This document shows, piece by piece, positions 13,419 through 52,978 of a DNA stretch of 64,000 nucleotides. The translations under genes and the position numbers were made by a program. The stretch's first letter is position 1; each line of letters starts with the position of its first letter. Origin of the DNA: Desulfovibrio aminophilus DSM 12254 (lineage in GTDB: Bacteria; Desulfobacterota; Desulfovibrionia; Desulfovibrionales; Desulfovibrionaceae); the NCBI RefSeq assembly GCF_000422565.1, contig NZ_AUMA01000003.1, positions 124,001 to 188,000 on the forward strand. Reading direction: 5' to 3'. The notes under the pieces are model-generated. The model was not told the DNA's origin. It did not search any database and saw only the letters and a list, made by a program, of their open reading frames with translations.

Positions 13419-13447
13419 CGCTGCTCATCCTCGACAGGCACAGTTCA

Positions 13448-19942: not shown

Positions 19943-19954
19943 GCCTTCTCTCCA

Positions 19955-26376: not shown

Positions 26377-27005
26377 TGGGGCTCTTCCTTGAAAAATTCG
26401 ATGGCAATTCCTTCTTCGGTGGCGTGCCATTCATGGCCACACCCACACACCAGAGATTTGCCGATTTCTATGTACATTTTTTGTCCGCAATCTTGGCAAT
26501 GTACTCGACCACAATTGCAACCACGGCATTGCCCGGCCAGCCACCAGAAAATCGAGCCATCATCGAATTGCGTCATACCGTCCTGGTCGAGGACAATGCA
26601 GTCGGCGTTGCAAACCGGGCACATTTTCCACTTGTCAGGGACGATGAGATCCAGAGCCTCTTCCATGGACAGAGTCATCAAATCGCACTGAATGAAACGA
26701 GCCTTTGTCTCGGCCGGAGAAGTGAATCCGTTCGCCGCTACGATGATTGTTTTGTGTGCTCCGACAGCCTGTGAAAGTGCTGCGACTTCTTCGATATCCT
26801 TGACGTCGAGGGGCGTTGAATGGAATTTCGCATCAATGAGCATACGCAACGAGTGCCCCCGCTCGGTCATCTCGATCATTACATCGACTTGCCTACGTTG
26901 TCCCGTCACGAGATCCGGCAAGTAGACGTTGCGATGAACCGTCCCGAATCCGTCCAACTGTTCATAGAGTACGGCGACAGCTTCTTGGTATTCCTGCCAT
27001 TTCAT
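26370..27005 (-). CDS. PD-(D/E)XK nuclease-like protein with zinc ribbons (Mrr-like), inside the DISARM operon
   Basis: 211 residues. The N-terminal domain looks like a restriction-endonuclease fold: Asp41 (RRQVDVMIE), then Asp58-x-Lys60 (MLIDAKF), and a following helix with Glu-Glu-Val, the order seen in Mrr-like PD-(D/E)XK nucleases. The C-terminal 85 residues have three cysteine clusters (CPVCNADC; CRGCNCGRVHCQDCG; CGCGHEWH), probably zinc ribbons for nucleic acid or protein contact. It overlaps drmD by 4 nt and drmMI by 7 nt. No nuclease of this type is in the DISARM core. Nuclease activity is inference from the motif. Confidence 0.75.
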   Translation of the reverse strand: MKWQEYQEAVAVLYEQLDGFGTVHRNVYLPDLVTGQRRQVDVMIEMTERGHSLRMLIDAKFHSTPLDVKDIEEVAALSQAVGAHKTIIVAANGFTSPAETKARFIQCDLMTLSMEEALDLIVPDKWKMCPVCNADCIVLDQDGMTQFDDGSIFWWLAGQCRGCNCGRVHCQDCGQKMYIEIGKSLVCGCGHEWHATEEGIAIEFFKEEPQW

Positions 27006-30000: not shown

Positions 30001-30193
30001 CGCCCATGGAATCTTCGTCCAGGGATGACAGGCCGACGAGGTGTTGGTCACCGTTGCTCGCCGGTGACAAGGCTCCACTGGAAACATCGGTGACCACCCA
30101 TTGACGACGTCGGACCTCGACGAGTTGACCGGGCTCGGGAACGGCACCGAAACGAACGACACCGTTCGCCGAACTTGCGTTTGTCGTTGTCAT
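27002..30193 (-). CDS. drmD: DrmD: SNF2-like helicase of class 1 DISARM
   Basis: 1063 residues. Walker A DVGLGKT at 151-157, DEAH at 264-267 (LVVDEAHNVAP), and C-terminal motifs LLATDAASEGIDLQ and NGRIDRHGQ. The long C-terminal half is helical and charged. This is the class 1-specific SNF2 ATPase; class 2 systems have DrmE instead. RapA-like enzymes look similar, but the adjacent DrmMI/DrmA/DrmB/DrmC settle the call. Overlaps the methyltransferase gene upstream (ATGA at 30190-30193) and the nuclease gene downstream. Confidence 0.93.
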   Translation of the reverse strand: MTTTNASSANGVVRFGAVPEPGQLVEVRRRQWVVTDVSSGALSPASNGDQHLVGLSSLDEDSMGEEIQVVWQMEAGAQVLEKAGLPSITGWDSNDRLEAFLDAVRWGAVTNADRSFLQSPFRSGITIEDYQLDPLVRAVEMARVNLLIADDVGLGKTIEAGLVIQELLVRHRARTVFVVCPASLQVKWQTEMQEKFGLEFRIVDTEYVKRLRRERGIHVNPWTSYPRLVTSMDWMKSGEGFRLLKDVLPPHITYPRKFDILVVDEAHNVAPASASMYALESQRTRLIRSLAPHFTHRLFLSATPHNGYQESFTSLLELLDDQRFARTVMPDEKQLHRVMVRRLKSDIVDANGKPVFPVRKLEGLEIDYSEEERQIHALLGEYTADRSKSVKGTRFEYGTDFVHMLLKKRLFSSPMAFAHTLAKHRETLERGKPKGDRDTMDDRILRKAILKTEEEYSDDSLVEEAQHEAVEVVGELAPPLSREQRDMLDRLIAWSEKARNRVDSKARAILDWIESHLKTDGRWNGKRVILFTEYRATHSWLHQILTANGFGGDRLMYLHGSMLPDEREAVKAAFQAHPDISPVRILLATDAASEGIDLQNHCNYLIHVEIPWNPNVMEQRNGRIDRHGQKEDAVFIWHPVGKGFSARVAANERSDSVKPGDVAGDHEYLMRAVLKIDTIREDLGSVGPVIARQIEEAMLGKRSGLDTASAEAKAAKARKFVTAEKRLQERIARLHERLMEAKNDFHLSPEHISRAVEVALDLAEKPSLKPTGSPQGEKESVFEVPVLPGSWGRATVGLEHPHTGVRRPITFDHDVAKGRDDVVLAHLNHRLVQMCLRLLREEIWKLDDVKRLHRVAVRTVPDSELRVPAVAVWSRLVITGGDHHRLHEELTLAGGELEHKRFARIAQVGKLEALVAQGSPIEPDQALFDVLKDRFERHEDALMAAVEARSRDRLKFLENTLDRRMKSEIADVRTVLDELEASIRKELKSDRQGGQLYLPGFSPEEMAQVKKDVHALEARLARIPEEREEEKAAIEKHYANPVDRTFPVAVVFLVPASQSRIKQ

Positions 30194-31305
30194 TGTGACC
30201 GGCTCCTCCGTCTCGACTGATACGCTTTCTTGGTCGCTTCCGATACGTGCGACAGCAAGCTGGCTCCGATGACCTCTCCGAGGGTGACGGGAACGGCGTT
30301 GCCGATAAGCCTGCCGATGGACTTCTGGCAGACCTGTTCTCCCGGTCGAGTGAACTCGTAATCTGGTGGAAAGCTCTGTAAGATCGCGCCTTCTCTGAGT
30401 GAAATAGCTCTGTCTTGCTCCGGGTGGCCGAAACGGCCGTTACCGAACCCGAAGAATTGGGTCGTCATCGTCGGGGCGGGATCGTCCCAGGTCATGCGGC
30501 CATAGACGCTGGGGTAGGTCTTTCCGGAAGATTTCTTGTGGCAGTCGGCCACCAACTCCCTGGGCCAGTCACGCCATGTCCCCCCGGGCCTGGATGCCTT
30601 TATGCGGCGCATATTGATTTCGGAGAGAGCGGAGCATTGGTGCAGAGGGTCTTTCGGGTGGCTCGTTCCGGCCTCTAGAGGAGGCAGGTTGCCGATGGCC
30701 TCCTTGACAGTTTTCGGTCTCTTGCCGAACTGCTCGGGAGTCAGAAGCGAGATCGGCCCGAGCTTGGACGCCAGCAACACCAGACGGTTGCGCTGTTGGG
30801 GGACGCCGTATTCTGCGCAATTGACGACCCGGTATGCGACCGAGTACCCATTGCCTTCGAGGTTGGCCACGAACTCGTCGAAAACGTTCTGTTCGATCAG
30901 TCGCGGAACGTTCTCCATGGTCACAAGATCCGGTGACAGTTCGTCCACGAGTCTCGAAAACTGCAGCAGGAGCCACCAGCGTTTGTCGGATTCCGTTGCC
31001 TTCTGGTTGTAGGTGGAAAAAGTCTGGCACGGAGCGCAACCGGCGAGGAGTTTGATCCCGTTCTTTCTATAGTGGCGCTTCAGCTCGCTGGCTTCCAGCT
31101 CCTCCACCGATTTGAGCAGGAACCTGGCGTTGTTGTTGGCGACGTAGGGGTGTTCACAAGCCGGATCAATGTCCACGCCCAGACGGACATCGACACCGGC
31201 CTTCACGAGGCCATGTGTCAGTCCACCCGCCCCGCAGAACAAGTCGACGGCATAGACCTTCCGGCCTGGCGTCGCTCCGATTTTAGCCTGTGTCCCGTGT
31301 TTCAT
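30190..31305 (-). CDS. C5-cytosine DNA methyltransferase (DrmMII-like)
   Basis: 371 residues from ATG 31305, which overlaps the HTH gene stop as ATGA. All m5C motifs are present: DLFCGAGG at 21-28, the catalytic PCQ at 92-94 (GCAPCQTFS), ENV at 131-133, QQRNR at 170-174, and the C-terminal IGNAVPV. It would methylate cytosine in a defined site to mark self DNA. Class 2 DISARM uses a methylase of this family (DrmMII), whereas this locus has the class 1 helicase and DrmMI as well. The Vsr gene at the other end fits the need to repair deaminated m5C. Target sequence not predictable by reading. Confidence 0.92.
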   Translation of the reverse strand: MKHGTQAKIGATPGRKVYAVDLFCGAGGLTHGLVKAGVDVRLGVDIDPACEHPYVANNNARFLLKSVEELEASELKRHYRKNGIKLLAGCAPCQTFSTYNQKATESDKRWWLLLQFSRLVDELSPDLVTMENVPRLIEQNVFDEFVANLEGNGYSVAYRVVNCAEYGVPQQRNRLVLLASKLGPISLLTPEQFGKRPKTVKEAIGNLPPLEAGTSHPKDPLHQCSALSEINMRRIKASRPGGTWRDWPRELVADCHKKSSGKTYPSVYGRMTWDDPAPTMTTQFFGFGNGRFGHPEQDRAISLREGAILQSFPPDYEFTRPGEQVCQKSIGRLIGNAVPVTLGEVIGASLLSHVSEATKKAYQSRRRSRSQ

Positions 31306-31526
31306 TTTTTCGAATCCTTGCCTACATCTTCCTTGGACGAGTCGGCGGACGCGCCACCAGCCTTCACCCACTCGTCGACCTCGTCCGTCTTGAACTTCCA
31401 GAGGCGGCCGACTTTGTGTGCGGGCATGCCGCGTCCCGCTATCCAGCGGTAGATGGTGTCGATGCTGACCCCGAGATGTTGGGCAATCTCCTCGGCTGAA
31501 AGCCAGCGGTGTTGTTCTGATGCCAT
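31302..31526 (-). CDS. Excisionase-type HTH DNA-binding protein, first gene of the DISARM operon
   Basis: 74 residues from ATG 31526 (GGAGAG upstream). A MerR/excisionase-type helix-turn-helix of the HTH_17 type is clear: WLSAEEIAQHLGVSIDTIYRW, then GMPAHKVGRLWKFKTDEVDEW. The tail is Ser/Lys-rich. Proteins of this form act as excisionases or as small regulators at the head of restriction and DISARM/BREX loci. Being first in the operon and 80 nt from the promoter it could be an autoregulator. In a satellite context an AlpA-like role is an alternative. Confidence 0.85.
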   Translation of the reverse strand: MASEQHRWLSAEEIAQHLGVSIDTIYRWIAGRGMPAHKVGRLWKFKTDEVDEWVKAGGASADSSKEDVGKDSKK

Positions 31527-33145: not shown

Positions 33146-34351
33146 TTAGCTCGCGGAGAATTTCATGAGCTTCACGGCCTCGAAGTTCTGGACGCCGCCG
33201 CCGAAGCGCTCGGTCACCCAGAAGGAGGTGAAGCCCTTGTTGGTGATGTTGTCGCGGATGATGCGCATGCCCCGGCGGCGGTAAATCAGGTAGGCCCGCT
33301 TGAAGTCGCCGAAGGCGATGGACAGGCTCCCGGAAGCCACGTCGGGCATGTAGTCGTCAGTGCGCACCGGATAGCCCAGGAGCATGCCTGCGACGCCCGC
33401 CTGCAGCCCCGGCTGCCAGAGGTAGTTGCCCTGGCCGTCCTTGAACTTGCGAATGGCTGCCAGCGTCAGGTCGTTCAGGAGAAAGGCCCCGGACGCTCGG
33501 TACTGAGCTTTGAGCGCGTGGATCAGGTCGATGAGTTTGTCGCTGGGGTTGCTGGACGCGAACGCGCCGTTGCCGCCGGAGAGCACGGTGCCGAGCTTGC
33601 CCCAGTCGTAGGAATCGTTGGCCACGGCGTCATAGGTCAGCAATCCGCGCGGGCGGGAGACGCCGTTGCCGGTCAGGAAGGCTTCGGCCTCGGCCTCGGC
33701 AAAAGCCAGGGCGACTTCCTCCATGAGGAAAGCCTCGACGTTGAAGCCCAGGTCCTCCAGGCTCTCATTGGTCACCTCGGGAAAGGCATCCACTTCCCGG
33801 GCCTCGAAGGTCAGCAGGCTGAACTTGGGTGTCGAGGTGGCCGACGGACTTTCACCCTCGCCGCGCCAGGCGTAGGATACGCCGGTGGTGCGCACGGGCT
33901 TCTTGTACACGGCCGCGTTGCCCGCGATGGTCTGGGCCATGCCGGAGAGCGCGGACATGGCGCTCACGGTGCGCTCGATGGCCTGGGCCATGTCCTCGGT
34001 GAGGAAATAGCCGCCGTCGGGATCGCTGTAGGTGGCCATGGCCTTGCGCTGGACTCCGGCCAGTTCGCGGTCGTCGCCCTTGCGCAGGTACTTGCCCAGG
34101 GCCTGTTTGTGCTCCTGGATCATGGGGTCCTGGCCGTCCACTCCCGCGCCCGGCCGGTTGGCCTTCTTGGCGACCTCGGCCAGGTCTTTGCCCAACCGGG
34201 TCAGATCCTCGTTGATCCTGGCGACCTTTTCCTCCAGGTCGGCCGGAGCGAAGCCTTTCTTCTCGATGGCCGTAAGACGATCGTCGTTGGCCTGCTTGAA
34301 CTCCTCGAACGCCTTGTGCTGCTCTTCCAGCAGCTGTTTGATCTCGTCCAT
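33146..34351 (-). CDS. HK97-fold major capsid protein
   Basis: 401 residues. An N-terminal coiled-coil delta/scaffold segment (about 1-100, rich in Glu/Lys) is followed by the capsid fold: GGYFLTEDMAQAIERTVS, FPEVTNESLEDLGFNVEAFL, AEAEAEAFLTGNG, and the C-terminal RNFGDFKRAYLI-like segment (SIAFGDFKRAYLIYRRRGMRI). The delta domain is normally removed by the adjacent protease. The Shine-Dalgarno (AAGGAGGTAATCC) includes the protease stop codon, coupling the two genes. Confidence 0.93.
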   Translation of the reverse strand: MDEIKQLLEEQHKAFEEFKQANDDRLTAIEKKGFAPADLEEKVARINEDLTRLGKDLAEVAKKANRPGAGVDGQDPMIQEHKQALGKYLRKGDDRELAGVQRKAMATYSDPDGGYFLTEDMAQAIERTVSAMSALSGMAQTIAGNAAVYKKPVRTTGVSYAWRGEGESPSATSTPKFSLLTFEAREVDAFPEVTNESLEDLGFNVEAFLMEEVALAFAEAEAEAFLTGNGVSRPRGLLTYDAVANDSYDWGKLGTVLSGGNGAFASSNPSDKLIDLIHALKAQYRASGAFLLNDLTLAAIRKFKDGQGNYLWQPGLQAGVAGMLLGYPVRTDDYMPDVASGSLSIAFGDFKRAYLIYRRRGMRIIRDNITNKGFTSFWVTERFGGGVQNFEAVKLMKFSAS

Positions 34352-34354
34352 GGA

Positions 34355-35068
34355 TTACCTCCTTGCGGACGTCTTGATGGTGGCGATGTTTCGCCGCAGC
34401 AAAGCGGCGACCGCATCCGCACCCCCGTTATGGGCATCCTCGGCGTCACGCAGAGGCAGGGCCTTGAATCCTTCGGCCAGAACGGCCTTGGCCTGTGTCC
34501 TGGAGAACCCGGCCTCACGCAGGGCCCTCTCGGCGAGCCGGATGTCCGGCACGCCCTTCACTTGATCCACCCGCGCCCTGGCATTGGCCGGAAAGGTCAC
34601 GGGGCTGATCTCGATGAGTTCGATGCGCTTGAGCCTGCGACGGGGCTCACCCGGCTTGCCGCCCGAATCCCACTCCCGGGCCACGTAGCCGATGGACAAG
34701 CCGTCGATGGCCGGCCGGGGTTTCATGCGCATCAGGGAGTGAACTTCGCGCCCGCGCGGAGTCTCTGCCAGCCGGCCGGTTACGCGCAGACCCACTTCGT
34801 CCTCAGTGATATCCGTCCAGATGCCGATGGGCGTCAGGTCCTGCGCACCGAACCCGAGTCCGCCGTGCTGCAGGAGCATGACCGGCCAGGCGGCCTTGCC
34901 CGATCTGGCGTCGGTCAGGCTTTGCGTGAACGCCCCGGGCAGAATCACGTCGCCGTAGGCGTCCACGTTGCCGAACACGGCTCCGTATCCGGAAAAGGTC
35001 ATCTGCTCGGCGTCGGTTCCGCCGGGAGCGAACTTGAGTTCCTTCAGGCTACAGTTGAGGCGTTGCAT
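34355..35068 (-). CDS. HK97-family prohead protease
   Basis: 237 residues from the ATG at 35068, preceded by GAGGA; the start 30 nt earlier has no ribosome site. Features: FSGYGAVFGNVDAYGDVILPGAF, LLQHGG with the catalytic His, and DGLSIGY with the catalytic Ser, the order of herpesvirus/HK97-type serine proteases. It cleaves scaffold segments during prohead maturation. It overlaps the end of the portal gene by 20 nt. Confidence 0.9.
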   Translation of the reverse strand: MQRLNCSLKELKFAPGGTDAEQMTFSGYGAVFGNVDAYGDVILPGAFTQSLTDARSGKAAWPVMLLQHGGLGFGAQDLTPIGIWTDITEDEVGLRVTGRLAETPRGREVHSLMRMKPRPAIDGLSIGYVAREWDSGGKPGEPRRRLKRIELIEISPVTFPANARARVDQVKGVPDIRLAERALREAGFSRTQAKAVLAEGFKALPLRDAEDAHNGGADAVAALLRRNIATIKTSARR

Positions 35069-36287
35069 CGGCGGTATCCTCCGCGTTGTCACCGTCATCC
35101 GGCTCGGCCGGATCGGTCATGTTGAGGGGCACGCGGTAGCGTTCGCCGCCTTCGTAGGGATTCATGTCCTCATACTCGCGCACCTCGTTGGGATTCATGG
35201 CTCCGATGCCGTACATCCTGGCGTAGAACTCGGCCCGGTCCTTGGCCGCGCCGCGTAGGAGGCCGTTGAGCATGAACTTGGCGTAGAGCCCCTGGCGGCG
35301 CTCCTCCTCGCTGAACAGATTCTTGGCGATGCTCGTTTCGATGCGGCGGCACCAGGGCGAGAGCGTGTGGACAACGTGGGCCAGAAACATCTGCTCGGCG
35401 CTGGCGTAGGTGGCGGTCTTATCCGAGTAGCCCACCATGATGGGCAATACCCTGAAGGCCCGGCAGATTTCCTCGACCTGAAACTTGCGGGTCTCCAGGA
35501 ACTGGGCCTGATCGTTGGGCGCGGTCATGGAAGTGAACTTCATGCCGCCCCAGAGCACGGCGGTTTTGAAGGCGTTTCCGCCGCCGGCGTGCCTTGCCTC
35601 CCAGGACTTGCGCAGGGCCAGGCGCTGCTCCTCGTTCAGGACCTGATCCGTGGACAGGACGCCGCCGACCACGGCTCCGTTGGAGAAAAGCCGCGCGCCA
35701 TGTTCCTCGGTGGCCAAAGACAGGCCGATAGCCTCCCGGGCGAGGCGCACGCCTTCGAGCCCCATCCAGCCGTTCCAGGACGGCCCACGCAGGTGCCACA
35801 TCTCGGAGGCGGAAAGTCCAATGCGACGGCCGTCGTCCGTGGTCACCTCGTAAGAGATCACGTAGCCGTCGCGCTTTACGGTCACCTGCTGCGGCTCGTA
35901 GGGGAGCAGCTCCACAACGCGGCCCAGCCCCCGATTCACGAACACAAATGCGTTGCCGCAGAACACCAGATGCATGACCACCTGCTCGATGAACTCGAAG
36001 CTGGTCTGCCAGTCGTTGGGCGCGTCCCCGAGCAGGCCGTAGAGCGGGTGGGCGTCGGCCGGGGTGCGCACGCCGCCTTGTGAGCGAAAGACTTTGAGCG
36101 GCACCTGGGCCAGCCCTTCGGCGATGACCCGGGCGCAGGCCAAGGCCGTAGTCGCCTGCAAGGCCGTCTTCCAGGTCACGGCCACGCCGCTCTTGGCGGG
36201 CTGGGTGAAGAAGCCGTCGGCCAGGAGGTCCTCCAGGGCCATCCCCGATGCCGACTTGCGGCCCTTGAGCCAGGAGATGACGCCCAT
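35049..36287 (-). CDS. Phage portal protein (HK97 family)
   Basis: 412 residues from ATG 36287, which shares one base with the terminase stop (TGATG). Typical portal segments: ALACARVIAEGLAQVPLKVFR, HPLYGLLGDAPN, FEFIEQVVMHLVFCGNAF, ARLFSNGAVVGGVL and VEEICRAFRVLPIMVG. Twelve copies form the DNA entry ring of the capsid. A frame reaching to 37472 is a shadow of the terminase. Confidence 0.93.
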   Translation of the reverse strand: MGVISWLKGRKSASGMALEDLLADGFFTQPAKSGVAVTWKTALQATTALACARVIAEGLAQVPLKVFRSQGGVRTPADAHPLYGLLGDAPNDWQTSFEFIEQVVMHLVFCGNAFVFVNRGLGRVVELLPYEPQQVTVKRDGYVISYEVTTDDGRRIGLSASEMWHLRGPSWNGWMGLEGVRLAREAIGLSLATEEHGARLFSNGAVVGGVLSTDQVLNEEQRLALRKSWEARHAGGGNAFKTAVLWGGMKFTSMTAPNDQAQFLETRKFQVEEICRAFRVLPIMVGYSDKTATYASAEQMFLAHVVHTLSPWCRRIETSIAKNLFSEEERRQGLYAKFMLNGLLRGAAKDRAEFYARMYGIGAMNPNEVREYEDMNPYEGGERYRVPLNMTDPAEPDDGDNAEDTADATPQL

Positions 36288-37957
36288 CAGTCCCAGACCT
36301 CCATGCCGACAAACGGCTCTTCCGCGTGGAGCATGGCGCGGGAAAGGGCCATGATGGCGGCCACGATGCCGTCGATCTTGTTCTCGGCGCGTTCCTTGCC
36401 CGGATAATAGGCCTTGGTCCTGGTGGAGCGCAGCACCACGTTGGCGGCCTGCCAGGCCAGCAGCGGGTCGCCGTCGTGACGCAGCTTGCCCGAGAGGTAG
36501 ATGGCCTCGAACTCCTTCATGGGCTCGGAGATGAACGCCGGAGACTGGTTGATCTCGATGCAGGAAAAGGACACCCGTTCGCGGATCTCCTGCATAAGCA
36601 TCTCGGCCTCGCGCGGGTCGTAGGCCAGTTCCCGGATGGAGAAGCGGTCGGCGTAGGCCAGCAGGTCGTCCATGAGATAGTGGTAATCGGTGCGCGCGCC
36701 GGGCGTGGCCACCAGATGCCCCTCGGCCACCCAGCGCTGGTAGTGAGCGTTTTCGGGAAGGGTGACCGTCTCCTCCGGCAGGTAGTGCCTGCCGAAGAGA
36801 TAGAATTCGTCCCCGCGCCTGAAGAGCAGCACCATGGCCGTGAGGTCCACCTTGGAGGCCAGGTCCACACCGACCCAGCAGGGCTCGCCCGCGAAGTCGT
36901 CCAAGGAGACGTCCGCCCGGCAGGCATTCCACTTGACCATGTTGATCCAGGCCGAGCCGGCGTTGGCCCAGACGTTCAGGTGCTTGCACTTGAGGATGTT
37001 CTGGCGGGAGGCGATCTGCAGGGCCTCCTTGCGCCGGGCCTGGAGGAAATCGGGGTAGACCGAGACGCCCAGGTTCGGGTTGGCCTTTTCCCAGGACGGC
37101 CACTCGGTCCAATCGTCGTCTTCGTCGATGGTGAACACGATGGCGAACAGCTGGTCGTTTTCCAGGGTGCCCTCGAGGACCTTCACGGCCTCGTCGCGTT
37201 TGGCGTAGCAGGGCCCGGAGGTGTCCACGCCGGCCGTGGTGATCACTGCAAGCATGGGCTGGGAGCGCGCGCCCATGCCGGTGAGCATGGTGTCGTAGAG
37301 GTCGGGCGTCTGGTGTTCGTGGTATTCGTCCACGATGGCGCAATGGGGCGAGGCCCCGTCGCCGGGCTTGCCGATGACCGGCTCGAACTTGCTGGCGTTG
37401 TCCAGGATGTGCAGGTTCTTGGCCCCGACGTGGATGCCGAAGTGGCTGACGAAGGACGGATTCTTGAGGCACATCTGACGGGCCGGACCGAAGACCTCCC
37501 AGGCCTGCTTCTCGCTGGTGGCACCGGAATAGACCTCGGCCCCGGGCTCGTTGTCGGCCGCGAACATGTACAGACCAATGCAGGCTCCGAGCACGGACTT
37601 GCCGGATTTTCTGGGGATCTCAGCGTAGATTTCACGGAAACGGCGCAGTCCGTCCGCCTTGCGCACCCAGCCGAAGGCCACGGCCAGGATGAAGCACTGC
37701 CAGGGTTCGAGGGCGATCTTCTTGCCCGCCCATTCCCGGCCTTTCACATGCACCATGTTGGAGGCGAAGCGGCAGATGCGTTCAGCCGCCTCCCGATCCC
37801 AGCGGAAGGGGTAGTCTTTGGATCTGGAGCGTTCCAGATCGTCCAGATGCCTCCCGCAGGCCTGCCGCACGAACGAGCAGGCCGCGATCTTTCCGCGCAC
37901 GACGTCCCGCGCGTAGCGGTTAGCGGCGGTGGCATATGGGTGGGTGGTCTTTGGCAT
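36287..37957 (-). CDS. Phage terminase large subunit
   Basis: 556 residues. Walker A-like PRKSGKS at 115-121, Walker B with CAIVDEYHE near 200, and a C-terminal RNase H-like nuclease domain beginning GVDLASKVDLTA. It cuts concatemeric DNA and pumps it into the prohead through the portal. The family is the common HK97/lambdoid TerL (Terminase_1). The small plus-strand gene at 38037 separates it from TerS. Confidence 0.95.
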   Translation of the reverse strand: MPKTTHPYATAANRYARDVVRGKIAACSFVRQACGRHLDDLERSRSKDYPFRWDREAAERICRFASNMVHVKGREWAGKKIALEPWQCFILAVAFGWVRKADGLRRFREIYAEIPRKSGKSVLGACIGLYMFAADNEPGAEVYSGATSEKQAWEVFGPARQMCLKNPSFVSHFGIHVGAKNLHILDNASKFEPVIGKPGDGASPHCAIVDEYHEHQTPDLYDTMLTGMGARSQPMLAVITTAGVDTSGPCYAKRDEAVKVLEGTLENDQLFAIVFTIDEDDDWTEWPSWEKANPNLGVSVYPDFLQARRKEALQIASRQNILKCKHLNVWANAGSAWINMVKWNACRADVSLDDFAGEPCWVGVDLASKVDLTAMVLLFRRGDEFYLFGRHYLPEETVTLPENAHYQRWVAEGHLVATPGARTDYHYLMDDLLAYADRFSIRELAYDPREAEMLMQEIRERVSFSCIEINQSPAFISEPMKEFEAIYLSGKLRHDGDPLLAWQAANVVLRSTRTKAYYPGKERAENKIDGIVAAIMALSRAMLHAEEPFVGMEVWD

Positions 37958-38036
37958 CTATTTACCTGGAACGACTTGCTATATGCCAGGATGTATGGAC
38001 ATGTGGTCTGCAAGCGAACAGCGAAAGGAGAGGACC

Positions 38037-38231
38037 ATGAGCAACCAGGAACAAGCCCTTGCCGACTTCATGAACAAGATTCAGGAATCCAGAGAGCTGC
38101 TGCGCAAGATCGGCGAACGGTTCGACGATCACCTTGGTGTTGCGCCGGAAGAGATCACCTGGGCCAATGCCGGAGACGCTGGGCGGATTCTGGCCGACCT
38201 GCGGGATATCGCCGCATATCTTGAGGTGTAA
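38037..38231 (+). CDS. Small hypothetical protein on the opposite strand between terS and terL
   Basis: 64 residues, ATG 38037 with AAAGGAGAGG upstream. Acidic and helical (ADFMNKIQESRELLRKIGERFDDHLG), ending DLRDIAAYLEV. It is transcribed against the surrounding packaging operon, converging on terS with an 8-nt gap. No family recognised. The strong ribosome site and lack of an overlapping leftward gene support it. Confidence 0.65.
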   Translation: MSNQEQALADFMNKIQESRELLRKIGERFDDHLGVAPEEITWANAGDAGRILADLRDIAAYLEV

Positions 38232-38239
38232 GCGACCCC

Positions 38240-38698
38240 TCATGCTTTCCCGAACCCCGCCCATTCAGCGTTTTCCTTCCCGGCCGGATTCGCCGCGACC
38301 CGTGTGCGGCTCGATGGCGTCAGGCCGAACTCAGTCAGAAATTTGTGCATGATCTCCATGGCCCGGTTGGCCACCCCCACCAGCGGGTTCTGGATCACGT
38401 TGCCGCCGGTGGTCTTGATGAGCAGCCCGGACTGACGAATCTTGCGTTCTGCCTCGACAAAGCGCTCAAAGGCCTGGCAGTAAGCCGCCAGGGCCGCATC
38501 GTCCCCCTCGGTGAGCACGCCCATGCGGGCGAGCACCGGAGCCTTGCGGAGCCATTCCTCCCGGGCGGTCTCGCCAAGAAAGTCGGGCGGCTCAGGCAGC
38601 GCCGGGGCAAGCTCTGGCTCGTTGGGATTGACGCGGCACTTCTGCGCCGTGCCCTTGAGCATCTTGAGCTTGGTGGGGAGAGGCTTACGGCCGGCCAT
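38240..38698 (-). CDS. Phage terminase small subunit (P27 family)
   Basis: 152 residues with GGAGGGGGAGG upstream of ATG 38698. The start MAGRKPLPTKLKMLKGTAQ and the motif EPPDFLGETAREEWLRKAP, followed by ALAAYCQAFERFVEAE, are typical of P27-family small terminases, which bind the packaging site and recruit TerL. It overlaps the methylase gene by 14 nt. Confidence 0.92.
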   Translation of the reverse strand: MAGRKPLPTKLKMLKGTAQKCRVNPNEPELAPALPEPPDFLGETAREEWLRKAPVLARMGVLTEGDDAALAAYCQAFERFVEAERKIRQSGLLIKTTGGNVIQNPLVGVANRAMEIMHKFLTEFGLTPSSRTRVAANPAGKENAEWAGFGKA

Positions 38699-40498: not shown

Positions 40499-41122
40499 AT
40501 GCCAAAAAATGAAACGTCGCGAGGCGGCAGGTTCTACGAGGCCATCGCCGTTTTCAAACGAGAAGGCGGCATGCTTCGCACGGGGCAAGCCCTGCGCAAA
40601 GGGATTCATCCAAGCACGTTGTACGCTCTCAGGGATTCGGGGATTGTGGAGCCTGTGAGCCGAGGAGTGTATAGGCTGGCAGAGGCTCCTGCCCTTGGCG
40701 ACCCGGATCTGGTAGTTGTAGCTACGCGAGTCCCGCAAGGGGTCATTTGTCTCATCTCCGCTCTGGCCTTTCACGGGATCACAACCCAGATACCGCATGA
40801 GGTTCATCTGGCACTGCCCAGGGGGGCAGAGGAGCCGCGACTGGACCATCCTCCAATCGCAACGTATCGATTCACCGGCGAGGCCTTCTCGGAGGGAGTG
40901 GAAAATCACGTCCTCGACAATATGAACGTCCGCATCTACTGCCTGGAGAAGACGCTGGCGGATTGCTTCAAATTCAGGAACAAGATCGGAATGGACACTG
41001 CCATCGAGGCGGTCAGGCTGTATCGGGAACGAAGAGAAGTGAAAGTGAACGATCTGATGCGGTATGCGGCCATCTGCCGGGTGGCCAAGGTCATGCGTCC
41101 TTACATCGAGGCGATCCTGTGA
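40499..41122 (+). CDS. abiEi: AbiEi-like antitoxin of a type IV toxin-antitoxin pair
   Basis: 207 residues. A winged-helix N terminus (GGMLRTGQALRKGIHPSTLYALRDSGIVEPVSRGVYRL) and the AbiEi C-terminal domain (DLVVVATRVPQGVICLISALAFHGIT, LEKTLADCFKFRNKIG) are clear. The protein counteracts the AbiEii toxin and represses its own promoter by binding inverted repeats. A promoter TTGATT-16-TAAAAA is visible at 40435-40462. It is on the strand opposite to the phage operons, with noticeably A/T-rich upstream DNA. Confidence 0.9.
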   Translation: MPKNETSRGGRFYEAIAVFKREGGMLRTGQALRKGIHPSTLYALRDSGIVEPVSRGVYRLAEAPALGDPDLVVVATRVPQGVICLISALAFHGITTQIPHEVHLALPRGAEEPRLDHPPIATYRFTGEAFSEGVENHVLDNMNVRIYCLEKTLADCFKFRNKIGMDTAIEAVRLYRERREVKVNDLMRYAAICRVAKVMRPYIEAIL

Positions 41123-42027
41123 GAGAAATCAAGAACATCCCCGCATCCGTTCATCATCGTTTGCAGAACAAGGCGAGGGAATCGTCCAGAACGTTTGGCG
41201 AACTCCTGCAGCATTACGCTATTGAGAGGTTTATCTACAGGGTGAGCAAGACACCCCACGCGGACAAATTTTTCCTCAAGGGAGCCCTGATGCTGCGAGC
41301 CTGGGGTGGGCCAGGTGTTCGCCCCACCATGGACATCGACTTTTTGGGCAGGACTGACAACAGCCTTCAATCCATTGAAAGCATCATGAAGGATGTCTGT
41401 GAGGCGGTTGTCGAAGCGGACGGCATGTCCTTCGACCCTGATTCCGTTCGGACGGTGAGAATTACTGAAGATGCAGAATATGATGGAGTTCGGGTGCGAC
41501 TCCAAGGCCGGCTTGGCACCGCGCGGGTTTCCATCCAGGTGGACATTGGGTTTGGCGATATTGTCGTACCTGAATGCAAGCAGGTCATCTACCCGACTCT
41601 TCTCGATTTCCCTGCCCCGGAATTGGCTGGGTACTCCATGGAGAGTTCCATCGCGGAGAAGTTCCAGGCCATGGTGAAGCTGAGCCAGTTGAACAGCCGC
41701 ATGAAGGATTTTTATGACGTATGGCTGCTTTCCAGGATGTTCGATTTCCAGGGGAAAGTCTTGATGCAGGCAATCGTGGCTACGTTCACTCGGCGAAAGA
41801 CTGCATTGGACAGTGCTTCAGATCTATTCCGGACAACGCTCAGACGGGACAAAAGCAAACAATCACAATGGAGTGCCTTTCTCAAAAAGCTGAAGCTCGA
41901 AGATTGCCCTGACGACTTCGGGTCCGTTCTTGGTCATATGGAGTCCTTTCTGGTCCCACCGACAGAAGCGGTTATGACGGATGAGAATTTCGACCTCTTC
42001 TGGAATGCCCCGGGACCCTGGAAATGA
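41119..42027 (+). CDS. abiEii: AbiEii-like nucleotidyltransferase toxin
   Basis: 302 residues. It starts with GTG 41119, overlapping the antitoxin stop. The nucleotidyltransferase signature is present: FLKGALMLRAW, then RPTMDIDFLG with the two Asp, and the later LAGYSMESSIAEKFQAMVKL and RMKDFYDVWLL. Family members transfer nucleotides to tRNA and stop growth during phage infection. As cargo it would stabilise the element and add a second defence layer next to DISARM. Confidence 0.9.
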   Translation: MREIKNIPASVHHRLQNKARESSRTFGELLQHYAIERFIYRVSKTPHADKFFLKGALMLRAWGGPGVRPTMDIDFLGRTDNSLQSIESIMKDVCEAVVEADGMSFDPDSVRTVRITEDAEYDGVRVRLQGRLGTARVSIQVDIGFGDIVVPECKQVIYPTLLDFPAPELAGYSMESSIAEKFQAMVKLSQLNSRMKDFYDVWLLSRMFDFQGKVLMQAIVATFTRRKTALDSASDLFRTTLRRDKSKQSQWSAFLKKLKLEDCPDDFGSVLGHMESFLVPPTEAVMTDENFDLFWNAPGPWK

Positions 42028-42044
42028 CATGTAACGCAGAAGTT

Positions 42045-42157
42045 GGTGACAGGTGACGGATTGTGACAGGTCATCCGGTTATCTGCTCATGCGCATGCGC
42101 GCACGCGCGCGTGAGCGATTAATGGTTTTTTCCCGTCACCATCTGTCACCCGTCACC
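42045..42157. other. Candidate replication origin with GTGAC iterons
   Basis: Three GTGAC units on the plus strand (around 42046, 42053, 42063) face three on the minus strand (around 42135, 42145, 42152). Between them lie about 65 bases including an alternating GC/CA tract (42089-42113). It directly follows the primase-helicase stop, as origins do in P4-like satellites. The function is inference. Confidence 0.45.
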
Positions 42158-44392
42158 CTACCTGTCGTAGGCATCTTGCCACTCCTCCCGCTTTTTCAAA
42201 CAAATACCGGTGAAATGTCGTGATGCTTTCGTCCTGCCTGGAATGAACTCCCGTTTGCAGAGGTTCGCGCTGAATGCCTTTGTGCTGCCCGGGTGCTCTC
42301 CGTTGCGCTCGGCAAATCCCTTCCACGACTCAAAGAGCTCGGCTGTCTTGCAGACCAGCCTGGGGCCGACATCGCAGCATTCTTCGATCCACTGCCCGAA
42401 GAGGTCCTGCTCGTCGAAATAGGCGGCCGTGGCCTCCTTCACGCTTTCCGGCCGCAGGAGACCGTTCTCCCGCCAGTCCAGGCAGCCTTCGATCATCCAG
42501 CGCAGGATGGCCGGGTACTCGGCCTTCAGCTTTTCCTCCAGGCGCTTGTCCGGGCTCGCGGGCTTGTGGACAAAGGGGATGATGTTGAAACGTCTGCGGG
42601 CTGCCTCGTCCACGTTGCGAAGCACGGGCTTGTGATTGCCGACGATCAGGAGCTTGAACTGGGGCGTGTAGGTGAAGAAGTCCTGACGCATGAAGCGGGC
42701 GCTGATCTTGTCGCCGCCGGTGAGCTGTTTGATGCGGCTCTCGGCCCATGGACGGCCTTCTTCGGTCTCGGAGACGCTGACCAGCCTGGCCCCGCGCAGC
42801 ATGGCCAGGTCGGTGGGGTGGCGGTCGCCCTGGCTGGCCGTGAAGGTGTCCATTGCCGCCGTGGCGGCGTAATCGCCCAGGATGTTGGTAAGGGTGTTGA
42901 GGAACACGGATTTTCCGTTGCCGCCAGGGCCGTATATGAAGAACAGGGCGTGTTCGGAAATGTCGCCGGTTAACGCGTAGCCGGCCACTTGCTGCATGAA
43001 GCGCTGCAACATGGCATCCCCTTGGGTCGCCTCATCCAGAAACCGCCGCCAGAGCGGGGCGTCGGAAGAACGCGCCGGAGCCACGGCGGCAAGCTTGGTG
43101 ATGTAATCCTCGCGGCGAGCCGGACGCAAGGTCCCTGTGCGCAGATCCACCACGCCATCCGGAGTGCCCAGCAGAAGGAGGTCGGCGTCCCATATCTCGC
43201 TGGTCACGGCGAAGGCTCGGTCGGTCTGGGCGAACCGCTCCACCGCACCGGCCGTGGCGGCCTTGGACAGCGTGGCCGCGACCTTCGTGTTGTCCATGCC
43301 TGCGGCGGCCATCCGGCAGAGCTTTCTCGCCCAGGCAAAGGCCAGCCTGGTCTTTTCCACCCGCCAGTGACTGCCGGTCCAGACGAACCACGCTCCGGTC
43401 TCGTGGCAGTAGCGCAGATCGTCCTTGTGCTCCCTGGCGAAGAGGAGCGCGATGGCGTCTTCTGTGGCAGGATATGGGGTGGCTGGACAGGCGTCGTTCG
43501 ATTCATCCGGCTTTGCCGGATCGAGCGCTGCTACGGCTTCGACCAGACGGAGCAGTTCCTCGCGGCCGTGGCCGGCCTTCTTCCAGTCCACGATGTCGCC
43601 CTTGGGCGGCAGGCCGGGCAGTTCCACGATCTTGACCGAGGCGGCCACGGGCAACAGTGCCTTGGCCACCCTGCGGGCGTGATTGCGCCCTGGCGTGTCG
43701 TTGTCCGGCAGGATGACCACCTGCTTGCCCTGGAAGTACGGATTGTACTCCTCGCGCCACTTGCCCGCGCCCATGGGGTTGCAGGTGGCGGCCAGCCCCC
43801 AGCCGGCGAGCTCCAGGGCCTTCTGCTCGCCCTCGACGATGAAAACGGTCTCGGCCCGCAGCATTTCAGGAAGGCGAAACGGCACCAACCGCACGCCCTT
43901 GACGGAGTTGATGCGTTTACCGGTCGCGTCCAGATGCCACTGGCGGATGGCCTTGCGGCAACCCGGGGTCTCGTAGCGGTCCACGGCAAACAGAAACCGG
44001 CCTGCCTCATCCTCGTAGCGAAAGGTGGCGACGAGATTTTCGGGCCGGACAGGCGTCTCCGGCAGGTCCTTACGCTTGGGCTTTAGCGTGACAGGTGCAA
44101 GCCCGATCTCCTCGGCGATCATCCGGGCGGCCTTGGCCTGGCCGAGTTCTTCTTGGGCCGCGACCAGGGAGATGATGTCACCGCCGCTCTCGCCGGTCGC
44201 AAAATCGGACCAGACCCCGGTCTCGGTGTTGCAGCTGAACGACTTTCCAGGGTTGCCATGGATGTCGCCGGCTACCAGTTCCCTGCCTTGGCGTTTGGCC
44301 TGAGGCAACCTACCTTGCAGAAAGCCCGGATTGGCCAGGGCCGCCTCGTTGATGCGCTTAAAGTCAAGGTCGGTTCCACGTCCGCCGCTCAT
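42158..44392 (-). CDS. P4-type primase-helicase (TOPRIM plus D5/SF3 helicase)
   Basis: 744 residues. N terminus resembles a degenerate primase zinc region without the cysteines (GDIHGNPGKSFSC). A TOPRIM domain follows (FIVEGEQKALELAG near 190, VVILPDND near 230), then a D5_N region and an SF3 helicase with Walker A GPGGNGKS near 490 and the later RFMRQDFFTYTPQFKLLIVGNHKP. It would initiate and drive element replication. Its start shares a base with the upstream stop (TGATG). Confidence 0.93.
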   Translation of the reverse strand: MSGGRGTDLDFKRINEAALANPGFLQGRLPQAKRQGRELVAGDIHGNPGKSFSCNTETGVWSDFATGESGGDIISLVAAQEELGQAKAARMIAEEIGLAPVTLKPKRKDLPETPVRPENLVATFRYEDEAGRFLFAVDRYETPGCRKAIRQWHLDATGKRINSVKGVRLVPFRLPEMLRAETVFIVEGEQKALELAGWGLAATCNPMGAGKWREEYNPYFQGKQVVILPDNDTPGRNHARRVAKALLPVAASVKIVELPGLPPKGDIVDWKKAGHGREELLRLVEAVAALDPAKPDESNDACPATPYPATEDAIALLFAREHKDDLRYCHETGAWFVWTGSHWRVEKTRLAFAWARKLCRMAAAGMDNTKVAATLSKAATAGAVERFAQTDRAFAVTSEIWDADLLLLGTPDGVVDLRTGTLRPARREDYITKLAAVAPARSSDAPLWRRFLDEATQGDAMLQRFMQQVAGYALTGDISEHALFFIYGPGGNGKSVFLNTLTNILGDYAATAAMDTFTASQGDRHPTDLAMLRGARLVSVSETEEGRPWAESRIKQLTGGDKISARFMRQDFFTYTPQFKLLIVGNHKPVLRNVDEAARRRFNIIPFVHKPASPDKRLEEKLKAEYPAILRWMIEGCLDWRENGLLRPESVKEATAAYFDEQDLFGQWIEECCDVGPRLVCKTAELFESWKGFAERNGEHPGSTKAFSANLCKREFIPGRTKASRHFTGICLKKREEWQDAYDR

Positions 44393-47410: not shown

Positions 47411-48253
47411 CTAAACCGGACCCCCTGCGGTTGCAGACGAGCGGATGAATTCCCTGGGGGATTTCATCCGCAGCCCCTTGTGGGGGTGCCTCTCGTTGTA
47501 GTCCTCGAACCAGGCGTGGAGCTGGTTCAAAACCGCCTCCGCATCGGGACGTTCATGAATACGGACATAGTCCCGCTTGAAGGTCTTCACAAACGCCTCG
47601 GCCATGCCGTTGCTTTCCGGGCTGCGGACCGGCGTGAAGCGCGAGCGCAGCCCCAACATGGCTGCGAACTTCATCGTATCTTTGGCCGTGTAGCAGGAGC
47701 CGTTGTCCGAGAGCCACTCCACCGGGTGAGCGGTCCGCGGCGTCCCAAACCGCCTCTCCACGCATTCCAGCATCAAGTCCTGCACCATGCGGCTGGTGAT
47801 GCCTCCTGTCGTCGCCAAGTAGCCCAGGGCCTCGCGGTCGCAGGTGTCGATGACGAAGACCACGCGCACGGTGTCGCCGTTGTCGCAGTGGATTTCAAAG
47901 GCATCGGAACTCCAGCGAAGGTTGCTTTTGAGCGTGACGACCTTGCCGTCATGGCTGCGCTCCGGCCTGTAGCCTTTGTGCCTGGCCAACAGCAGGCCAT
48001 GAAGGCGCATGATCCGGTAAACGCGTTTGTGATTCACGCCCGGGCGCCCATCTTGCCGGAGCTGCCTGTTCAACAGGGCGCAGACCCGGCGATAGCCGTA
48101 AGTCAGGCGGTGATCCACGATGTCCCGGATCAGCGGCAGCAACCGCTCGTCCTCGGCCTTGGAGTAGCGCGCAGGCCGTTCACGGGGCGGCTCCTTCACC
48201 CGCTCGGCAAGTCTGGAGCGGGAAACGCTCAGAGCCTCGGCCACGCGTTTCAT
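47411..48253 (-). CDS. IS3-family transposase OrfB (DDE integrase domain)
   Basis: 280 residues. HTH_21-like region at the start (YGYRRVCALLNRQ), then an rve integrase core with the three acidic residues: Asp in AFEIHCDNGDTVRVVFVIDT, Asp in VEWLSDNGSCY, Glu in PESNGMAEAFVKTFKRDYV. Normally made as an OrfAB fusion by frameshifting at the orfA/orfB overlap. Here the overlap is 4 nt at 48250-48253. Confidence 0.93.
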   Translation of the reverse strand: MKRVAEALSVSRSRLAERVKEPPRERPARYSKAEDERLLPLIRDIVDHRLTYGYRRVCALLNRQLRQDGRPGVNHKRVYRIMRLHGLLLARHKGYRPERSHDGKVVTLKSNLRWSSDAFEIHCDNGDTVRVVFVIDTCDREALGYLATTGGITSRMVQDLMLECVERRFGTPRTAHPVEWLSDNGSCYTAKDTMKFAAMLGLRSRFTPVRSPESNGMAEAFVKTFKRDYVRIHERPDAEAVLNQLHAWFEDYNERHPHKGLRMKSPREFIRSSATAGGPV

Positions 48254-48648
48254 CGGAAACCGTCCTCCCAGGGCAACGGCGTGCGCGAGAGCAGTTTTTT
48301 TTCACGCGCGATCTCCAACGCCTCCTTGAGGATTTCCACCTCCATGGTCTTCCTGCCAAGCATGCGCTCCAATTCGCGGACACGCTTCTTGAGCAACCGC
48401 AACTCGGCAGCCCCGACGACTTGGTCATCGGCCTGCACTGCGGCTTTTCCCCCATCGCTCATGAGCTTTCTCCACCGAAACAGCAGACTCGGCGAGATGC
48501 CGTGCTTGCGGGCCACGTACGAGACGTTCATGCCCGGATGCAGCGACTCCTGGACCAGCTCCAGTTTCTCCGCCACGGTCCACCGTCGACGGTGGACCGT
48601 GGTCAGCACCTCCACCACTGCTTCCCCGTTAGCACTAGGTCTGGACAT
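48250..48648 (-). CDS. IS3-family transposase OrfA (HTH domain)
   Basis: 132 residues. HTH_Tnp_1-type segment RRRWTVAEKLELVQESLHPGMNVSYVARKHGISPSLLFRWRKL, followed by a leucine-zipper-like coiled coil (ELRLLKKRVRELERMLGRKTMEVEILKEAL) that mediates dimerisation. It binds the terminal repeats. Typical of the IS2 group. Confidence 0.92.
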   Translation of the reverse strand: MSRPSANGEAVVEVLTTVHRRRWTVAEKLELVQESLHPGMNVSYVARKHGISPSLLFRWRKLMSDGGKAAVQADDQVVGAAELRLLKKRVRELERMLGRKTMEVEILKEALEIAREKKLLSRTPLPWEDGFR

Positions 48649-50900: not shown

Positions 50901-52460
50901 TCAGGCGGCTGTTCTCTGGCACAGTTGCTTGAGACCCTCGCTTCTGAAAGTCACCGTCACCGACTGGTCACGGCCGTCGAACCCCACTCGTTCGACGAGA
51001 ATATGGATGATCTTCGCCTGCTCCTTGGAGGACAGCGAGTTCCACACCTCGTCAAAATCCGCCAATGCCTGCGTCAGATCGTTCTCTTTGACGGTCGTCT
51101 TGCCCAGCACGATGATCTCCTCCTGGATGGCCGTCATGCGCTGCTCGGTGGTGCGAATCCGCTCCTGCAAATCCGCCAGGCGGTCGGTCGCGATTTCCGA
51201 GGCCCCGGCCGGTAATTTACCGCCCAGGAGTTTTCGGACCTGGGCATGGAGCCGTTTGAGTTCCCGCTCCGCTGCTTTCCGCTCCATCTCCAGCTCATGC
51301 AGGCGGACTTCGGCTTGTTCCGTGGCCTTGGTGAGTGTGGTCGACAGGACCGCCGGGTTGGTGCCCAACCCCTTGATGTGCTGCACCACCGCGTTTTCAA
51401 TGTCGTAGGCGTTGACGGATTTCGTGGGGCATTTCGCCCACCCTCGCTGCTGGGCAGTCTGGCAGACGTAATATCGGTAACTCTTGCCGTTCTTTTTATT
51501 GGCGCAGGAGTGCGTCATCCCTGTTCCGCAGGGCGTGCAGAAGATCAGCCCCTTGAGCAGCGCGCCGTACTTGTTGCGGACGAGGGTGCCGCCGTTGAGG
51601 CGATTGCGCCGCAGAATTGCCTGGACCCTCTTCCAAGTCTCCATGTCCACGATGGCTTCGTGCTCGCCTTCGTAGGTGGTCCCCTGGAACACCACCTTGC
51701 CCGTGTAGATGGGATTGGTCAGCAGTCGGAAGAGCGTGCTCTTGTTGAACGGCTTCCCGCCACGCTCCTTGCCCTTGCGGGTCACCCAACGCTTGTTGTT
51801 CCAGCCTCGGCGCTCAAGCTCCTGTGCCGAGGGGAGTAGCGACTCCAGTTCCAGGTAGAGCTGGAAGATCGCCCTGACTCGTGCGGCTTCGTCCTCGTTG
51901 ACCTCCAGCCGGCCGCCGCCCTCGGCCACGTCGTAACCCAGGACAGGCATGCCGCCGACCCATTTGCCTTTTCTGCGCGCGGCCCACATCTTGTCTTTGG
52001 TCCGCTCGGCGATGATCTCGCGTTCGAACTGGGCGAAGGAGAGCAGGATGTTCAGGGTCAGCCGGCCCATGGAGTGGGTGGTGTTGAACTGCTGGGTGAC
52101 CGAGACGAAACTCACGCCGTGGCGATCAAAGATCTCCATGAGGCGCGAGAAGTCGAGCAGGGAGCGGCTGAGGCGGTCCACTTTGTAGACCACGACGCAA
52201 TCGATGCCGCCGGCCTCGATGTCCGCCATGAGGCGCTTGAGCGCGGGGCGCTCCAGATTGCCGCCGGAGAAGCCGCCGTCATCGTATCGATCCGGCAGGC
52301 ATGTCCAGCCCTCGTGGCGTTGGCTGGCGATATAGGCCTCGGCCGATTCCCGCTGGGCGTCCAGGGTGTTGAACTCCTGCTCCAATCCCTCATCGGTGGA
52401 CTTGCGGGTATAAATGGCGCAGCGGATTGCACCAGAGTCTATTTTGGCGGAAGTGGTCAT
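50901..52460 (-). CDS. Large serine recombinase (integrase of the element)
   Basis: 519 residues from ATG 52460, overlapping the DUF2924 stop (ATGA). Resolvase domain with catalytic Ser21 (IYTRKSTDEG), YDDGGFSGGNLERPALKRL and VDRLSRSLLDF; then a recombinase domain (ARVRAIFQLYLELES, RLLTNPIYTGKVVF), a zinc ribbon (FCTPCGTGMTH...YYVC) and a coiled coil (QAEVRLHELEMERKAAERELKRL). It is the only integrase candidate in the element, 1.2 kb from the tRNA-Asn border. Large serine integrases at a tRNA 3' end are uncommon. Confidence 0.94.
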   Translation of the reverse strand: MTTSAKIDSGAIRCAIYTRKSTDEGLEQEFNTLDAQRESAEAYIASQRHEGWTCLPDRYDDGGFSGGNLERPALKRLMADIEAGGIDCVVVYKVDRLSRSLLDFSRLMEIFDRHGVSFVSVTQQFNTTHSMGRLTLNILLSFAQFEREIIAERTKDKMWAARRKGKWVGGMPVLGYDVAEGGGRLEVNEDEAARVRAIFQLYLELESLLPSAQELERRGWNNKRWVTRKGKERGGKPFNKSTLFRLLTNPIYTGKVVFQGTTYEGEHEAIVDMETWKRVQAILRRNRLNGGTLVRNKYGALLKGLIFCTPCGTGMTHSCANKKNGKSYRYYVCQTAQQRGWAKCPTKSVNAYDIENAVVQHIKGLGTNPAVLSTTLTKATEQAEVRLHELEMERKAAERELKRLHAQVRKLLGGKLPAGASEIATDRLADLQERIRTTEQRMTAIQEEIIVLGKTTVKENDLTQALADFDEVWNSLSSKEQAKIIHILVERVGFDGRDQSVTVTFRSEGLKQLCQRTAA

Positions 52461-52978
52461 TTGCGCCCTTTGTTTTTGTTCGTGGAGGCCTTGTTCAGAC
52501 CGAAAAAGACGAAGCCGTTCCATTTGCCGCCGGTCACCTCACGGGCAATGGCCGTGAGCGACTTGTACCGGCGATCCTCGAACTCGAAACCATCGTCCAG
52601 CACCCGGACCACGATGTCCCGCCCTTTGTATTCCCTGTGAAGGAGCACGCCGGGGAGGGGCACTCTGGGATCATGGGCTGAAGACAAGCGGCTTTTGACA
52701 GATCGCGCTCGGGCCTCGGCCGAGCCGGGCTTCACCGGATCGCGCGGGGCGCGCATTCTGAGGTCAGCGTCCCGGGCCAGCTCCTTGGCCCGCTTGCGAG
52801 CCCGTTCCGACAGGTTACCCTCGGCCAGAGCCTGAATGCGCCAGGCGATGCGCTTTTTCAGGAAGGGCTTGTTGTTGGAGCGGGTCTCCTCGCCGAAGAC
52901 ATCGAGGTACTTCTCCTTCAACTCGCCCACGGTCATTCGCTCGAGGCTTTGGACCTCCTTGTACGTCTCTGGGTTCAT
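52457..52978 (-). CDS. DUF2924 family protein
   Basis: 173 residues. The pattern VQSLERMTVGELKEKYLDVFGEETRSNNKPFLKKRIAWRIQALAEG, then LLHREYKGRDIVVRVLDDGFEFEDRRYKSLTAIAREVTGGKWNGFVFFGL is the DUF2924 signature. These proteins commonly sit beside serine recombinases in phages and islands; a role as recombination partner is likely but not shown. Coupled by 4-nt overlaps to genes on both sides. Confidence 0.9.
   Translation of the reverse strand: MNPETYKEVQSLERMTVGELKEKYLDVFGEETRSNNKPFLKKRIAWRIQALAEGNLSERARKRAKELARDADLRMRAPRDPVKPGSAEARARSVKSRLSSAHDPRVPLPGVLLHREYKGRDIVVRVLDDGFEFEDRRYKSLTAIAREVTGGKWNGFVFFGLNKASTNKNKGRK

Follow-up and report, generated by a model that had tools for sequence, protein, structure and literature searches.

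A mirror-arranged GTGAC array behind a P4-family primase-helicase gene in Desulfovibrio aminophilus is a probable replication origin

We analyzed a 64-kb stretch (the window) of contig NZ_AUMA01000003.1 from Desulfovibrio aminophilus DSM 12254; all coordinates are positions in this window. It carries an element that encodes a P4-family primase-helicase. Directly past the end of this gene lies an array of short repeats (iterons) that is probably the replication origin of the element. The array sits between convergent stops, with a plus-strand AbiEii gene ending at 42027 on one side and the minus-strand primase stop codon (42158-42160) on the other. The AbiEii gene is part of an AbiEi/AbiEii pair (40499-42027) that adjoins the array and converges on it with the primase. 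The array and its proposed initiator consist of the following features, each with the evidence for it in parentheses.

42045-42157, no strand: whole array of 113 bp, the proposed replication origin (layout, conservation and ranking in the window)
42046-42050, 42053-42057 and 42063-42067, plus strand: left iteron set, three GTGAC units (sequence)
42135-42139, 42145-42149 and 42152-42156, minus strand: right iteron set, three inverted GTGAC units (sequence)
42088-42113, no strand: alternating purine-pyrimidine tract of 26 nt (longest alternating run in the window)
42158-44392, minus strand: P4-family primase-helicase of 744 aa, the proposed initiator (D5_N and DUF5906 of Pfam, TIGR01613)
42197-42403, minus strand: C-terminal winged-helix domain, residues 664-732, the proposed iteron reader (AlphaFold model and fold comparison)
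42227-42229, minus strand: codon of K722 in the wing (residue associated with the first iteron base in relatives)

An earlier note on this DNA had described three GTGAC units facing three inverted units across a 65-bp centre with an alternating tract, directly behind the primase-helicase stop. The units, the tract and the position are all as described, the stop codon abutting the last base of the array; the length of the centre is not, as the innermost GTGAC cores of the two sets are 67 bp apart. Unit spacing is 7 and 10 bp within both sets, in mirror arrangement. The arms (42045-42070 and 42132-42157) are 85% complementary and separated by 61 nt, and 20 of the 26 bases of the tract are G or C. 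The tract tops 63 alternating runs of at least 9 nt in the window, the runner-up being 14 nt long. The inverted-repeat score around it, 14, is also the highest in the window and is followed by 9. Six GTGAC or GTCAC words within 115 bp are the window maximum, compared to a maximum of 5, reached once, among 100 synthetic 64-kb Markov sequences. This is the single GTGAC cluster in the window; the second densest place has 3 units per 115 bp. An Rfam scan returned one match only, under the gathering score and located in a neighbouring gene, and 501 bp of the array region found no match when compared with phage DNA.

To determine how common the layout is, we gathered relatives of the primase from bacterial genomes and viral contigs, among the matches listed, and labelled them with L-numbers. 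At least 150 bp of downstream sequence and an open frame of at least 250 aa were required, which left 287 loci with 243 distinct C-termini, reduced to 192 representatives. A fixed detector searched from 60 bp before to 240 bp after each primase stop for an inverted repeat around an alternating tract. It was positive for 134 of the 192 representatives: 118 of the 151 that score more than 400 bits and 16 of the 41 that score less. Two controls gave 23 positives in 1920 dinucleotide-shuffled copies of these regions and 45 in 2464 windows drawn at random from these loci. Among the representatives above 400 bits 33 were negative, and 12 of these had an inverted repeat scoring at least 11 with no qualifying tract, compared to 26 of 814 random windows. 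Very long inverted arms with no qualifying alternating tract lie 3' of the primase in L049 (37 nt, perfect) and L300 (score 24). The L162 genome has a second, distant primase-like gene (38% identity over residues 286-676) at which the detector found no array.

By their record titles, the positive loci come from the Desulfovibrionaceae, the alpha-, beta- and gammaproteobacteria, and the actinobacteria Streptomyces (L077) and Actinomadura (L078). The same order recurs directly past the stop codon: two or three iterons come first, then an alternating tract (CACGCGCGCGTGCGCG is one example), and last the same iterons in inverted form. In the 134 positives the tract begins a median of 55 nt past the stop codon (interquartile range 38-67), and in 37 of them the stop is a TGA followed by C, reading as part of a TGAC word. 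A direct 6-mer repeat is present within both flanks in 111 of the 134, compared to 9.9% of shuffled pairs, and repeated 5-mers are most often 9, 10 and 7 bp apart. What is kept across elements is the layout with its tract; what changes is the iteron word, which may be GTGAC, ATGAC, TTGGAC, TCGGAC, TTGAAGG, TGTAGCC, GGTGGAGG, GTTACG, AGCGACG, CAGTGACAG or others.

In 68 pairs, with the tract defined in one partner, differences in the tract comprise 149 transitions and 48 transversions, and those in the flanks 935 and 1039. The excess of transitions in the tract suggests that alternation itself matters, with the test as support only, for it is partly circular in that 56 of the 68 partners are themselves positive. 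A first version of the test (97:13 against 330:406) was rejected as circular, as the tracts of both partners had been defined by alternation.

The iterons vary together with the end of the primase. L165 is identical to the window primase at 357 of 368 positions over residues 301-673 and at only 39 of 71 over residues 674-744. The corresponding counts for L083 are 352 of 368 and 41 of 71. Both have TTGGAC iterons where the window has GTGAC. Judged by these sequences, primase tail and iterons have changed together in a natural swap.

A finer association is found in one subfamily, in which the tail mostly has the form R[TSN]-X-x-x-R. The identity of residue X, K722 in the window, goes with the base at the first position of the xTGAC iteron. 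This rule was first seen in 22 loci collected with a first C-terminal regular expression (regex); a broader one gave 61 rows, 53 of them with an assigned residue. We chose 30 rows by motif form and residue for a tree and dropped the other 31, which belonged to other subfamilies or had an unclear register. Rows were labelled by whether G or A was more frequent among their xTGAC units, leaving 29 labelled rows and one with equal G and A. Lys or Asn goes with G in 15 of 15 labelled rows (including L091, with four G to three A), and Met, Tyr, Thr, Glu or Gln with A in 12 of 12; Ser is split 1:1. On a tree of the helicase core, with the tail left out, the first iteron base changes nine times. Eight independent phylogenetic pairs on well-supported branches gave an average of 7.5 in agreement and none opposed (p about 0.008), a test that allows for near copies such as the window, L001 and L081. 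Residue 722 is the best associated of the C-terminal 440 columns (z 8.0, the next column 4.5). The K722 codon is 70 bp from the iterons, so the association is not a by-product of coding sequence overlapping the site.

Loci fetched later agree with the rule. With copies excluded, all seven xTGAC loci with Lys, Asn, Met, Thr or Tyr fit, five with G (L205, L232, L281, L394 and L409) and two with A (L410 and L413). For L205, L232 and L281 the residue was placed by the unchanged regex, and for the other four by the broader regex written after the sequences had been seen. Other residues fall outside the rule: Glu with A in L308, Gln with mostly A in L209, Ala with A in L298, Ala with equal bases in L256, and Ser with G in L407 or, by eye, with mixed bases in L406.

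The C-terminal domain that contains K722 is modelled as a winged helix resembling, by fold only, the P4 origin-binding domain. The AlphaFold model has a mean predicted local distance difference test score (pLDDT) of 76.7, with at least 90 in 59 of 108 residues and below 50 in 30, mainly at the ends. In model numbering a helix (68-77) takes the recognition position and residue 86, which is K722, falls in the wing, flanked by strands 81-84 and 89-96. Among solved structures, VIA-align placed RFX1 on DNA first (1dp7, Z 9.2), followed by RFX5 (8.9), the P4 origin-binding domain (1ka8, 8.0, over 77 residues at 20% identity) and AsfvPrimPol (7.9 and lower); matches other than winged helices begin at Z 5.8. 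When solved structures were searched with a profile of the winged-helix alignment, 1ka8 was not recovered, and the best matches were chains of the African swine fever virus C962R primase (E 0.013). RFX proteins read DNA mainly through the wing, and the position of K722 in the wing would fit this type of reading.

We also inspected 17 named phages by eye, readings to which no statistic is attached. Facing repeats were seen in six: AcaML1, Cheetobro, Aminay, A9Y, R24.1 and Ruminococcus phage NatCom_2329. In AcaML1, a complete genome annotated as a tailed phage, the layout with its tract (13753-13772) is the top match of the genome, scoring 17 with the next at 9. The cumulative GC-skew minimum of AcaML1 is at 9805, 4 kb from the array, with gene orientation confounding the skew. 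In R24.1 the array is likewise the top match of its genome (score 14, next 8), with a central alternating run of 9 nt. Several GTGACGGAT groups in both orientations lie 3' of the primase in this phage (Lacticaseibacillus phage R24.1, L421) and are spread wider than the array of the window. By eye, the AT-rich phages A9Y, R24.1 and NatCom_2329 have TA-alternating stretches in the centre, and Cheetobro and Aminay have no alternating tract there.

Known origins share parts of this arrangement. The alpha protein of P4 and the window primase both reach the NCBIfam model for P4-family phage/plasmid primases (TIGR01613), the latter with 305 bits against a cut-off of 108.7; directly compared, they have weak similarity (26% over 242 residues). 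Like the window array behind its primase gene, the crr site of P4 directly follows the 3' end of the alpha gene and is made of short iterated sites (type 1 repeats) in either orientation, and P4 has a winged-helix origin-binding domain of similar fold. Unlike the window with its one cluster, P4 has two separate iteron sites with a repeat word of their own, and neither crr nor ori has an alternating tract by eye. The origins of phage-inducible chromosomal islands (PICIs), including Staphylococcus aureus pathogenicity islands (SaPIs), are described as lying immediately 3' of pri-rep with two iteron sets flanking a presumed AT-rich melting site (PMC6092414). Compared with that description rather than with PICI sequences, the window array shares the place immediately 3' of the initiator gene and the two iteron sets flanking a centre, but its centre holds a mostly G+C alternating tract in place of the AT-rich site. 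The putative Cch2 origin of the staphylococcal cassette chromosome mec (SCCmec) is downstream of a helicase operon and is reported to have short iterons bound by the C-terminal domain (PMC7581432). It resembles the window array in having short iterons downstream of a helicase gene and a C-terminal domain as reader, the role proposed here. It differs in having a separate primase-polymerase, and deletion of the inverted repeats there is reported to have left binding unaffected (PMC7581432). Our search, confined to open-access literature, found among the papers listed no report of iterons flanking an alternating tract downstream of a primase gene, nor of an association between wing and iteron.

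Two further proposals of the earlier note can be judged from these comparisons. Its likening of the locus to P4 satellites is borne out by the TIGR01613 score, the resemblance of the winged helix to 1ka8 and the position of crr 3' of alpha; the layout is not confined to such satellites, as the element has a head module and a large serine recombinase and the tailed phage AcaML1 has the layout too. It had also named, beforehand, lack of conservation of the units in related elements as a finding that would speak against it. The outcome was the opposite: the layout is kept and the units co-vary with the protein. The repeat word itself is not kept.

We consider it quite likely that the array is the replication origin of the element, recognized in cis by the abutting primase-helicase, whose winged helix would bind the GTGAC iterons. 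The best reading is of a P4/PICI-like origin with an alternating instead of an AT-rich centre, one case of a widespread replicator-like layout. We set this class apart as a variant because the AT-rich centre of PICIs and the second site of P4 are both missing. The C-terminal winged helix would bind the iterons, and the two facing sets would load two helicase rings in opposite orientation. The rings would untwist the alternating purine-pyrimidine centre, with melting presumably at the tract, and unwind outwards. The primase would then prime both forks, so that replication would start at the array. With its many flexible pyrimidine-purine steps, the tract may absorb supercoiling, as Z-DNA for instance, in place of the AT-rich stretch that this centre lacks.

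Several observations weigh against this assignment. The layout went undetected by either detector in 21 of the 151 representatives above 400 bits, only 16 of the 41 below 400 bits were positive, and distant primases of the window's own order were mostly detector-negative. L311, L397 and L401 have no obvious 3' array. In the named phages nothing clear was seen by eye in six of 17 (phiC31, Cen1621, Moss, JCL1032, Pumpkins and 9NA), and five more were ambiguous (Prithvi, Amelie, phi1207.3, YS387 and Terrisporobacter phage TPDSL_ph1). GC skew over the window shows no clear switch at the array. A Foldseek search with the winged-helix model gave no match at E of 0.001 or below (best row 0.0036), and 1ka8 was absent from its 50 rows. 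The wing rule is confined to one subfamily, as GTGAC sites outside it pair with Gly, Ile, Arg, Ser or Val at the regex position, and L015 (Met), also outside it, has C. L091 (Lys) has mixed iterons. The linkers between paired units also tend to be complementary (71 of 112 positions compared to 103 of 352 just outside the arms, in 43 loci).

This last observation bears on a different, unlikely explanation, that the initiator recognizes a stem-loop or cruciform formed by the two arms, as in a pRN1-type origin, and that the repeats in the arms are secondary. The array strand folds at z -5.2, and together with linker complementarity this may reflect some pressure for pairing. Work on pRN1 suggests stem-loop recognition behind genes for a primase, superfamily 3 (SF3) helicase and winged helix, with a stem-loop at the same place in pRN1 and BIP-1 (PMC4234260). 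Like the window array, these have an inverted structure directly 3' of such a gene, kept while its sequence diverges; unlike the window, the pRN1 origin is reported to have no iteron structure, and the primase belongs to a type other than Toprim (PMC4234260). A pure stem needs neither the direct repeats inside both arms, with their near-helical spacing, nor a single wing residue that tracks a single iteron base, and both are found here.

Still less expected is that the main origin lies elsewhere in the element and the array serves as an accessory site in cis, on the model of P4 crr, or as a place where the same protein binds for copy-number control, partition or autoregulation. P4 does have an origin plus a separate crr, with crr the one behind alpha, and the element also encodes a ParB-methyltransferase. 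Against this, the window has only the one GTGAC cluster, the array is the top-scoring site of AcaML1, and PICI origins, which occupy the equivalent position, are reported to sustain replication of plasmids (PMC6092414). Two genes do converge on the array, but a bidirectional transcription terminator between them, or another non-replication repeat, is extremely improbable, as a scan of 41600-42600 found no terminators or promoters, the next gene in AcaML1 is co-directional with the primase, and co-variation with the primase tail would be left unexplained.

The element around the array encodes two further features, found by domain scans of open reading frames (ORFs).

50901-52523, minus strand: large serine recombinase, the probable integrase of the element
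33146-38698, minus strand: head module with major capsid protein, prohead protease, portal, TerL and TerS

No tail genes were found among the ORFs scanned, which were part of the total, and the element is possibly a capsid-forming satellite. A search for long direct repeats as attachment sites gave only one 21-nt pair, which is unconvincing. A two-gene transposase (47411-48648, rve and HTH_Tnp_1 domains) is between the primase and the recombinase. Beside the head module is a DISARM-type defence cluster (12948-31371) that by PADLOC models encodes DrmC, DrmB, DrmA, DrmMI, DrmD and DrmMII, and it includes a PifA-like gene (19955-22093) and a Vsr-like gene.

If the array is an origin as proposed, its layout would be a simple rule to locate putative origins in phage and satellite genomes that lack annotated ones. 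A question that follows is why the conserved centre is alternating and not AT-rich. A broader proposal seems to us evenly poised: that P4-family primases define a very large class of replicators that address themselves, the initiator reading, with a wing used in the manner of RFX proteins, the iterons that lie past its gene. New origin specificities would then have arisen repeatedly by one substitution in the wing together with one change in the iteron (Lys or Asn with G; Met, Tyr, Thr, Glu or Gln with A), and a composition-independent alternating tract would replace the AT-rich unwinding element. How initiator and origin can change specificity together without loss of function is a long-standing question. 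The close pairs of the window and L164, L138 and L232, and L124 and L024 differ in the first iteron base and, besides a small number of other changes, in the wing residue. Were the broader proposal true, the origins and compatibility groups of uncultured phages would be predictable from sequence.
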